Source: Rhizobiales bacterium 2SD (GTDB taxonomy: Bacteria > Pseudomonadota > Alphaproteobacteria > Rhizobiales > Beijerinckiaceae). Taken from it: a stretch of 64,000 nt of DNA. Each line of letters opens with the position of its first letter. Within the stretch, counting starts at the first letter, position 1. The translations under genes were made by a program, and so were the position numbers. The DNA is taken from the NCBI GenBank assembly GCA_005502805.1, contig SCMY01000003.1, positions 1-64,000 on the forward strand. Direction: 5' to 3'. The notes beneath the pieces were generated by a model that searched no databases, was not told where the DNA came from, and worked only from the letters and a program-made list of their open reading frames with translations. Below are positions 36,080 to 37,907 of the stretch, piece by piece.

Positions 36080-36655
36080 ATGCCGGCGATGCGAAGTCTC
36101 ATGCGGATGCGCCTGTCGGAAGCCCTCAGTCGCCGGCTGTTCGTTGGGGAATTGATGCTGCTCGCGCTGCCGAGCGCTGCAGTCCTCTTCGCCTACGGCA
36201 TCTTCTTCGCAGCCGGCATGCCGGTGGTCGCTGTCATGGCGATCGCCATCTCGGCGGGACGTGGTCTTCCCGGCAGCTGGTCCGAGGTCCTCAATGGACT
36301 GCAATTGGCTGGGCTGTTCGCAGGCTTTGGTGCTGTCGCCGGTCTCGGCGTCTTCGCCCTGTGGCGGTTCGTGAGGATTGCGCACAGCTTCGTCCGAAAC
36401 GGCCGGGCGAGCTTGCTGAAACTGCGCGGCATGTTCCTCTCCGGGGCGCTTTGCGCGATTTTGCCCGGGGTCGCCTGGGGATATTATGTCTTTCTCGGCG
36501 CCAGCGCCAGACGAGACCCTTTGCTCCTACCGATCGTGATGAGCGGCTTGCCGCTGCTCATCCCGGTCCTGCACCTGGCGCTGGAGCTGTGGTCCGTTCC
36601 CGAGCAGGCCAGGGCTGTCCATGGTGACGCGCCGGATTGCGCGCCGGGCAATTGA
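36080..36655 (+). CDS. Hypothetical membrane protein
   Basis: 191 aa if started at ATG 36080 (MPAMRSLMRMRL); ATGs at 36089 and later are possible. About four to five hydrophobic segments include ELMLLALPSAAVLFAYGIFF, LAGLFAGFGAVAGLGVFALW and LPIVMSGLPLLIPVLHLALE. No family is recognised. The preceding methyltransferase gene is 81 bp away. Confidence 0.65.
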   Translation: MPAMRSLMRMRLSEALSRRLFVGELMLLALPSAAVLFAYGIFFAAGMPVVAVMAIAISAGRGLPGSWSEVLNGLQLAGLFAGFGAVAGLGVFALWRFVRIAHSFVRNGRASLLKLRGMFLSGALCAILPGVAWGYYVFLGASARRDPLLLPIVMSGLPLLIPVLHLALELWSVPEQARAVHGDAPDCAPGN

Positions 36656-36687
36656 CAGGGCCGGCCGCCTCCATCATATCCGCTGGC

Positions 36688-36747
36688 ATGACCATGAACC
36701 CGACCCGACGTCGCACCGAACAGGCCGCCCCGGCGCGCCCGCGATGA
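36688..36747 (+). CDS. Candidate Arg-rich leader peptide of argC (19 aa)
   Basis: ATG 36688 opens MTMNPTRRRTEQAAPARPR and stops with TGA at 36745-36747. Five of 19 residues are arginine, including three in a row (CGA CGT CGC). A terminator hairpin with T7 follows 30 nt later and argC is the next gene. No strong Shine-Dalgarno precedes the ATG. The arrangement is that of a ribosome-mediated attenuator; this function is inferred. Confidence 0.45.
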   Translation: MTMNPTRRRTEQAAPARPR

Positions 36748-36800
36748 CGCTCGGCTTCTAGCCCGAACGCCCGCGACCGCGCCCCGAGCGCGGTTTTTTT
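36748..36800 (+). terminator. Candidate attenuator: terminator with competing antiterminator before argC
   Basis: Terminator: CCGCGC (36777-36782) pairs with GCGCGG (36788-36793), followed by T7 (36794-36800). Competing pair: CGCTCGG (36748-36754), directly after the leader-peptide stop, is complementary to CCGAGCG (36784-36790), which overlaps the terminator loop and 3' arm. A third hairpin (36751-36756 with 36760-36766) also uses the first strand. A ribosome at the leader stop would cover 36748-36754 and favour termination. Confidence 0.6.
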
Positions 36801-36899
36801 ATGCCCGTCGCAAAAATGATGTCCGGTTTTGCGAAGGTCATAGTCAGAAGCCAGCCAACGAATTTCGTCCGCTTCCACCAGACGCCTTGCGAGGGTCCG

Positions 36900-37832
36900 A
36901 TGAGCCAGAACCTGAAATCCATCTTCATCGACGGCGAAGCCGGCACGACCGGGCTCGGCATCCGCGAGAGGCTCGCCGACGTGCCGGAGGTCGTGGTCAA
37001 GAGCATCGATCCGGACAAGCGCAAGGATCCCGGCGCCCGCAAGGCGATGATGGCGGGCGTCGATCTCGTCGTGCTCTGTCTGCCGGACGATGCCGCCAAG
37101 GAATCTGTCGCGCTCGCCGACGAACTTGGCACCAAGGCGCCCAAGATCGTCGATGCCTCGACCGCCCATCGCGTCGCGCCGGGCTGGATCTATGGCTTCG
37201 CCGAGCTGGAGCCCGGCTTCGCGCTAAAGGTCGCCAACGCCAATCGCGTCGCCAACCCCGGCTGCTATCCGACCGGCGGCATCGCATTGTTGCGCCCGCT
37301 CGTCGATGCCGGCCTGCTGCCGAAGGACCATCCTGTCACGGTCAACGCGGTCTCCGGCTATTCCGGCGGCGGCAAGAGCATGATCGAGGCCTATGAGGCC
37401 GGCACTGCGCCGGATTTCGAGCTCTATGGCCTCGGTCTCAAGCACAAGCACCTGCCCGAGCTGCAGGTCTACTCGCGGCTGGAGCGGCGGCCGATCTTCG
37501 TGCCCTCGGTCGGCAATTTCCGGCAGGGCATGCTGGTCTCGGTGCCGCTGCATCTCGACACGCTGCCGGGCAAGCCCAAGCCGGCCGATCTGGAAGCGGC
37601 GCTCACCGAGCGCTATGCCGGCTCGACCTATGTCAGCGTCCTGCCGGCGGATGCGAGCGGCAAGCTCGAGCCGCAGGCGCTGAACGACACCAACAAGCTC
37701 GAACTGCGCGTCTTCGGCAATGCCGATCTCGGCCAGGCCGTGTTGATCGCCCGGCTCGACAATCTCGGCAAGGGCGCCTCCGGCGCCGCTGTCCAGAACA
37801 TCCGTCTGATGCTCGGCCTGCCCGAGGGCTGA
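36900..37832 (+). CDS. argC: N-acetyl-gamma-glutamyl-phosphate reductase
   Basis: Third step of arginine synthesis: NADPH-dependent reduction of N-acetylglutamyl phosphate. The 310-aa type 2 ArgC begins MSQNLKSIFIDGEAGTTGLG. The catalytic Cys lies in ANPGCYPTGGIALL and the conserved SGYSGGGKSMIEAY follows. ATG 36900 gives the usual N-terminus; an in-frame ATG at 36801 sits directly after the terminator T-tract. The gene is not next to rplM/rpsI in this window. Confidence 0.95.
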   Translation: MSQNLKSIFIDGEAGTTGLGIRERLADVPEVVVKSIDPDKRKDPGARKAMMAGVDLVVLCLPDDAAKESVALADELGTKAPKIVDASTAHRVAPGWIYGFAELEPGFALKVANANRVANPGCYPTGGIALLRPLVDAGLLPKDHPVTVNAVSGYSGGGKSMIEAYEAGTAPDFELYGLGLKHKHLPELQVYSRLERRPIFVPSVGNFRQGMLVSVPLHLDTLPGKPKPADLEAALTERYAGSTYVSVLPADASGKLEPQALNDTNKLELRVFGNADLGQAVLIARLDNLGKGASGAAVQNIRLMLGLPEG

Positions 37833-37879: not shown

Positions 37880-37907
37880 GCAGCACCCCCCAAATGGGGG
37901 ATGCTGC
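37880..37907. repeat. Extended CCCCC-AAAT-GGGGG palindrome downstream of argC
   Basis: GCAGCA-CCCCC and GGGGG-(A)-TGCTGC flank an AAAT centre. The 14-bp core is identical to the site at 27352-27365. It lies 48 bp past argC and 54 bp before the next small gene. There is no T-tract, so an operator is as likely as a terminator. Confidence 0.6.

Follow-up and report, generated by a model that had tools for sequence, protein, structure and literature searches.

Sequence evidence for a probably leaderless arginine attenuator in front of an alphaproteobacterial argC gene

A short leader frame, an intrinsic terminator and the argC gene follow one another on the forward strand of the window, by which we mean the whole stretch of 64,000 nucleotides that was analysed (Table 1). 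The argC protein begins MSQNLK and falls in family TIGR01851 (argC_other, here called type 2). A preliminary description of this DNA had pointed to a 19-codon frame with five Arg codons, three of them consecutive, followed by an intrinsic terminator and then argC, and all of these are present: arginine occupies codons 7, 8, 9, 17 and 19 of the frame, and a terminator scan calls an 8-pair terminator-like site, with T after it, at 36775-36795. A strict sigma-70 promoter scan called no promoter at the leader -35 and -10 hexamers. The search of Rfam families (T-box, riboswitches, leaders) gave only four tRNAs above gathering score in the window; the best Rfam match at the attenuator site itself was isrK, at 14.6 bits against a cut-off of 50.

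Table 1. Coordinates of features in and around the argC leader (window positions)
Feature	Position	Strand	Remarks
-35 hexamer TTGACA	36652..36657	+	TTGACA or TTGACG in 60/60 same-genus loci
-10 hexamer CATATC (putative)	36675..36680	+	Read from sequence; 17 nt past -35 hexamer, 7 nt before leader ATG
Leader peptide ORF, 19 codons, MTMNPTRRRTEQAAPARPR then stop	36688..36747	+	ATG 36688, TGA 36745-36747
Regulatory Arg run CGA CGT CGC, codons 7-9	36706..36714	+	Arg there in 53/53 nineteen-codon leaders
Antiterminator 5′ strand (predicted)	36732..36754	+	Overlaps the leader's last codons, stop and post-stop bases
Antiterminator 3′ strand (predicted)	36763..36783	+	Overlaps 5′ arm of terminator
Intrinsic terminator	36776..36800	+	ACCGCGC 36776-36782 x GCGCGGT 36788-36794, T tract 36794-36800
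GAGGG, likely argC ribosome-binding site	36891..36895	+	Read from sequence
argC, N-acetyl-gamma-glutamyl-phosphate reductase, 310 aa	36900..37832	+	TIGR01851, 397.9 bits

Chance could produce such an arrangement if any frame of a GC-rich spacer held Arg codons and the hairpin were no more than the terminator of the upstream gene. Many CGN codons are expected from GC-rich DNA, and the window holds terminator-like sites at close to the shuffle expectation (2 in 36300-37200 versus 0.8 +/- 1.1), the hairpin by itself not being significant. Comparison with other genomes, however, makes this explanation scarcely credible. A strict scan (a TTGACA-like hexamer, an ATG leader of 8-36 codons with Arg-Arg, and a terminator) of the best 80 of 571 confirmed, named argC loci found leader frame, promoter position and terminator together upstream of 48 of the 80 genes. 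Among the controls, a single dinucleotide shuffle out of 2000 passed, and none of the 80 reverse complements or of the 160 windows inside argC did. The sequence 5′ of the promoter differs from locus to locus while the leader is retained. The positives comprise all 22 of the closest loci (82-95% ArgC identity; several of them duplicate records of G-handle loci, L106 and L006 being an example, and are not additional evidence) and 26 of the 58 others (L143 being doubtful and L145 duplicating the record of L056). Microvirga, Chelatococcus, Alsobacter, one Bradyrhizobium, Hyphomicrobiaceae metagenome-assembled genomes (MAGs) and others are represented among these distant positives, so that the layout is shared by further genera and families, though the strict scan did not find it in the remaining 32 of the 58 more distant named loci.

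The labels on the 22 closest ArgC loci (17 Bosea, 1 Boseaceae, 3 Rhizobiales, 1 Beijerinckiaceae) are the reason for which the genus of the window is taken as Bosea. Within this genus, 61 genomes were searched, out of a larger group; 60 carry a type-2 argC, and the last, G030, has a distant paralogue only. Conservation of the leader is complete in this sample: in each of the 60 upstream regions TTGACA (58) or TTGACG (2) is followed 35-37 nt further on by an ATG, which opens an Arg-Arg leader in the same place, and in most a CATAT-type hexamer stands at the -10 position. The preliminary description would have given up the idea had relatives lacked the leader frame and hairpin; on this comparison the idea stands. 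Fifty-three of the 60 leaders have 19 codons, with arginine at codons 7, 8, 9, 17 and 19 in 53/53. Codons 2-6 and 10-12 of these 53 are highly variable, and the tail A-A-x-A-R-x-R-stop is as conserved within the genus as the Arg run. One same-genus locus (L056) keeps its Arg-Arg leader and has a degenerate terminator T tract. The lack of a clear Shine-Dalgarno sequence, which the preliminary description had counted as a weak point, turns out to be general, with an SD-like motif before the leader in only 3 of 60 loci. Because the -35 hexamer lies 35-37 nt before the ATG, the transcript probably starts at or next to that ATG and the leader is probably leaderless, which would also be the reason, as in S. 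meliloti trpL, for the missing Shine-Dalgarno.

Structures were compared on alignment A1, which holds 57 of the 60 same-genus leaders (56 distinct; the longer leaders L059, L061 and L062 were left out). The terminator pairs in 99.5% of cells over the 56 distinct rows, with A-U to G-C exchange in 4. As antiterminator, the preliminary description had proposed a 7-nt pairing of 36748-36754 with 36784-36790. This pairing exists in the window but is poorly conserved in relatives: 3 of its 7 pairs fail, in 15, 25 and 13 of the 56 distinct relatives, no change occurs on both sides, and 85.6% of cells are paired versus at most 58.4% when the arms are slid. A longer hairpin, 36732-36754 x 36763-36783, is paired in 93.3% of cells versus at most 47.3% slid, with changes on both sides in only 3 pairs (6 cells) of this unfitted alignment. 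Across genera, a MAFFT alignment (A2) misplaced the antiterminator arm and was replaced by the model-fitted A3, comprising 38 model-aligned leaders from 45 loci given; the other 7 were loci in which the scan had found no leader, and they did not match the model. On A3 the long hairpin is paired in 88.2% of cells and 9 of its 16 pairs have changes on both sides. Double-changed cells number 40 versus 16.5 +/- 3.1 in shuffles (0/500 reach this value) and at most 11 slid, figures that somewhat overstate covariation since A3 was fitted to the structure and the shuffles ignore relatedness. A compensatory example is CGCG:CGCG in Bosea, which becomes UGCG:CGCA in Microvirga.

Folds were also modelled with a ribosome in place, which was assumed to cover the RNA up to 12-14 nt beyond the A-site codon's first base. 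When the window sequence is folded up to the terminator 3′ arm with the ribosome on the Arg run, the model predicts the long hairpin; with the ribosome on the stop codon, the terminator remains. The same constraint folds were made for 55 leaders (14 of the 60 same-genus ones, 26 named and 15 unnamed others), in one of which, L082, the wrong hairpin was picked. With the ribosome stalled at Arg-Arg, the antiterminator is predicted to pair with the terminator 5′ arm in 52 of 55, and with the ribosome at the stop the terminator is predicted to form in 52 of 55. These models agree with the preliminary idea that a ribosome finishing the peptide masks the antiterminator strand and that stalling at Arg codons frees it. 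The accompanying idea of mutually exclusive structures also survives in modelled form, with one amendment: the antiterminator would be the longer hairpin, which captures the terminator 5′ arm and is better supported by the alignments than the 7-bp pairing. Antiterminator folding energy relative to shuffles has a mean z of -1.3 over the 55 leaders, with p <= 0.05 in 21; the window's own value is no better than shuffles (z -0.1). In 20 of 55 leaders the terminator is still present when the whole stalled leader is folded to equilibrium, and exclusivity in these would therefore have to be kinetic. A protector (1:2) hairpin, in which the Arg run would pair with the region of the stop codon, was also considered. 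It pairs in 98.2% within the genus, and in a synonymous-codon test on 53 leaders the mean fraction of synonymous sets that pair as well was 0.58; the run codons do not in general look selected for this pairing, and a protector hairpin, though possible in the genus, has no general support.

The reading we prefer, with a probability of about 0.88, is that this leader is a ribosome-mediated transcription attenuator that would adjust argC to how much charged arginine tRNA is available. The sequences speak strongly for an arginine attenuator of the classical kind, probably a leaderless one. From the anatomy, conservation and covariation of the leader and the modelled exclusivity of its structures we infer a leaderless start, translation, termination and an arginine response, in the following way. 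Transcription from the promoter would begin at the leader ATG or no more than a few bases from it, and a ribosome would load on the leaderless mRNA. With ample Arg-tRNA it would reach the UGA at 36745, where its usual footprint would cover 36732-36754; with that strand covered no antiterminator could form, the terminator (36776-36794 and the U tract) would fold, and RNA polymerase would stop before argC. With scarce Arg-tRNA the ribosome would stall at CGA-CGT-CGC (36706-36714), its front edge short of 36732, and the hairpin 36732-36754 x 36763-36783 would take the terminator 5′ arm, allowing argC to be transcribed.

Searches with two models, R1 and R2, extend the distribution; their genome counts are lower bounds because the filters were strict. 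In the genome of the window, model R1 scores 131.6 bits at a single strong site and 21.5 at the next. Among 397 order genomes, 32 have an R1 match at E <= 0.1; many of these are weak and not leaders. R2 matches 32 of the 397 order genomes at E <= 0.01, 23 with a match whose layout was read (matches in G124 and G357 and the second in G371 were left out of this reading), and 9 of 385 class genomes. R1 matches with the layout precede type-2 argC in families f2, f50 and f52, and also TIGR01850 argC (f20), argD (G334) and a gene read as RidA-like (G284). Both R1 and R2 matches in f20 stand before TIGR01850 argC, the family being confirmed for L078 and L276. Outside the order, R2 matches lie before argC in G545, G547 and G574 and before argD in G464, where the argD is truncated by the end of the stretch and scores below curated cut-offs. 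A minority of genomes thus have the element, which stands before argC of two families and before argD. Weak matches of either model in which the layout proved absent on reading were dropped (L064-L070, L085, L087, L090, L092-L099, four in L100-L103, L281-L286 and L291-L293).

Several single loci deserve mention. Arg leaders of the same layout stand before argD at L080 and L287; these two loci come from different families, of which one lies outside the order. At L076 a full R1 match (promoter, Arg leader, terminator) precedes a non-arg gene, read as RidA-like, which had no NCBIfam model match at 1e-20. In Microvirga flocculans (L181, 1120-1290), one of the 32 distant loci negative in the strict scan, the leader peptide is kept and the terminator 3′ arm and T tract are lost, which from its sequence we read as a natural loss of attenuation. 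At L139, L146, L152, L169, L174, L177, L182 and L183 (several Microvirga and one Hyphomicrobiaceae MAG) the leader follows an rpsI-like C-terminus and precedes argC, which suggests that argC acquired its own control inside an old ribosomal-protein neighbourhood.

None of the 150 order genomes searched, G000 among them, had the ArgR N-terminal domain (PF01316) over cut-off, and one (G194) had a sub-threshold match; 8 of 14 control genomes had it over cut-off. Among relatives, no such leader was found before argD (0/30) or before argG (0/23 testable, 6 of 29 loci being too short). Nor was one found before TIGR01850 argC in the best-scoring order loci (0/25, 5 of 30 being too short), a set of 30 from which the f20 loci and the leader-bearing paralogues of the genus were absent. 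The attenuator is not a pathway-wide control, because by the strict scan 32 of 58 distant argC loci are without it, and in the relatives covered so are argD and argG. Genome G000 also has two TIGR01850 argC paralogues, L002 (contig C26) and L003 (contig C11), each behind a second type of leader, with peptides beginning MLRNQALCDRRRRRFTQ and MFRNRTICDRRRRRFTQ, TTGACG 37 nt upstream and a terminator. This second type, with TTGACG, an ATG that looks leaderless, 3-5 Arg codons in a run and a terminator, occurs at both own copies and at 20 of 20 relatives examined (L294-L313), a sample that excludes secondary matches in six more genomes. In four examples folded, the terminator was kept in all modelled states, and these models gave no switch like that of the first type.

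The codons of the Arg run are restricted. In 96 distinct leaders of the first type (284 run codons) there are 108 CGA, 97 CGC and 79 CGT, with no CGG or AGR. The tally includes related, non-independent leaders, and the third base may be limited by RNA pairing as well; outside the run, the same leaders have 18 CGG and 5 AGG. CGA is present in every run (101/101 sequences, duplicates and L143 counted) and is the codon before the stop in 92 of 101 leaders. In the argC genes of the closest relatives (21 genes) CGG makes up 37.9% of usage and CGA 0.3%; the figures are 42% and 0.7% in Microvirga argC (13 genes), and 39.5% CGG with no CGA in Chelatococcus argC (4 genes). The 44 long ORFs of the window (chosen by length and perhaps not all genes) have 24.6% CGG and 12.9% CGA. 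Arg runs of the second leader type hold only CGA (43), CGC (54) and CGT (4). As a general rule, a single inosine-bearing tRNA decodes CGU, CGC and CGA, and a different tRNA decodes CGG.

This pattern bears on whether arginine is what the leader senses. A leader attenuator of the same layout might respond to some other cue at an Arg-rich nascent peptide, such as a drug, a polyamine or a general slowing of ribosomes. The conserved tail would agree with this, as would the recurrence of an A-A-x-A-R-like tail in Microvirga and Chelatococcus, since the nascent peptide itself could then matter; the leader orf34 of Salmonella speF, in the available part of its description, also has Arg codons that serve polyamine control (PMC6386406). 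We nevertheless think such a cue quite unlikely. The N-terminal part of the peptide varies freely, the tail is missing from family f20 and L140, and, with the one exception of L076, the controlled gene belongs to the arginine pathway, being argC (TIGR01851 or TIGR01850) or argD. Overlap with the antiterminator strand can account for the conservation of the tail, and the use of CGA, CGC and CGT without CGG points to the tRNA and not to the peptide. A bolder version of the arginine reading, which we offer tentatively and find rather doubtful as a whole, is that the attenuator senses the charging of one isoacceptor (the inosine tRNA for CGU, CGC and CGA) with slow CGA as a timer, and that this device, found before two argC families and argD in Alphaproteobacteria lacking ArgR, arose there more than once and does the job of the repressor.

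In the classical proteobacterial trp, his, leu, thr and phe attenuators, stalling at regulatory codons frees an antiterminator. The logic proposed for the argC leader is the same, but without a generally supported protector hairpin. Arginine is, to our knowledge, not among the amino acids of known biosynthetic attenuators. The closest parallel is the S. meliloti trpL-trpE(G) system, which, in the portions of the papers available, is likewise alphaproteobacterial, with a leaderless short ORF (as is probable for the argC leader), a run of the pathway amino acid, a terminator before the first structural gene and mutually exclusive structures, as modelled for argC (PMC7298713, PMC10117765); unlike the argC leader, it senses Trp, with an unrelated peptide and a different gene. 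That attenuator also releases a trans-acting small RNA and a peptide, peTrpL (PMC7298713, same limits), and the terminated argC leader might in the same way mainly yield such products, argC control being secondary. This is more improbable still than a different cue: the leader stays with argC or argD across different families, and its peptide is not conserved whole between genera. Two other leaders resemble the argC leader in part. Salmonella orf34, as far as the available text goes, senses arginine through consecutive Arg codons, as is proposed for the argC leader; it differs in controlling putrescine synthesis via Rho and RNase G with no intrinsic terminator, and its conserved core HIRRT is, by reading, missing from the window's leader peptide (PMC6386406). 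In Rhodobacterales, uORFC-8-2 upstream of cysS is described, in what was available of the source, as another alphaproteobacterial candidate for ribosome-mediated attenuation with tandem regulatory codons, differing in its Cys codons and tRNA synthetase gene (PMC8632094). An arginine leader peptide for argC was not found among the literature matches listed, which were available in part, and Vitreschak 2004 may contain an arginine case; argC is not named in the main text, as available, of a terminator survey or of a Bradyrhizobium start-site paper.

The mechanism is already known, and the amino acid sensed and the codon restriction appear to be new. For Alphaproteobacteria that lack ArgR, we know of no established answer to how arginine synthesis is adjusted; in the lineages that carry it, the conserved Arg leader of argC would be a direct and testable one, and arginine would join the amino acids sensed by biosynthetic attenuators. 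The leader would also be a natural case in which synonymous codon choice in a regulatory run appears constrained.

Two further elements lie close to argC in the window. Between the terminator and argC is an inverted repeat, TCGCAAAA...TTTTGCGA (36808-36834), which has a single copy in the window, is present in some relatives (e.g. L004, L010, L012) and missing in others (L007, L013), and looks like a small inserted element. Directly 3′ of argC is a palindrome around CCCCCAAATGGGGG (37880-37907), which also follows argC in several relatives and is perhaps the argC terminator or another conserved element.
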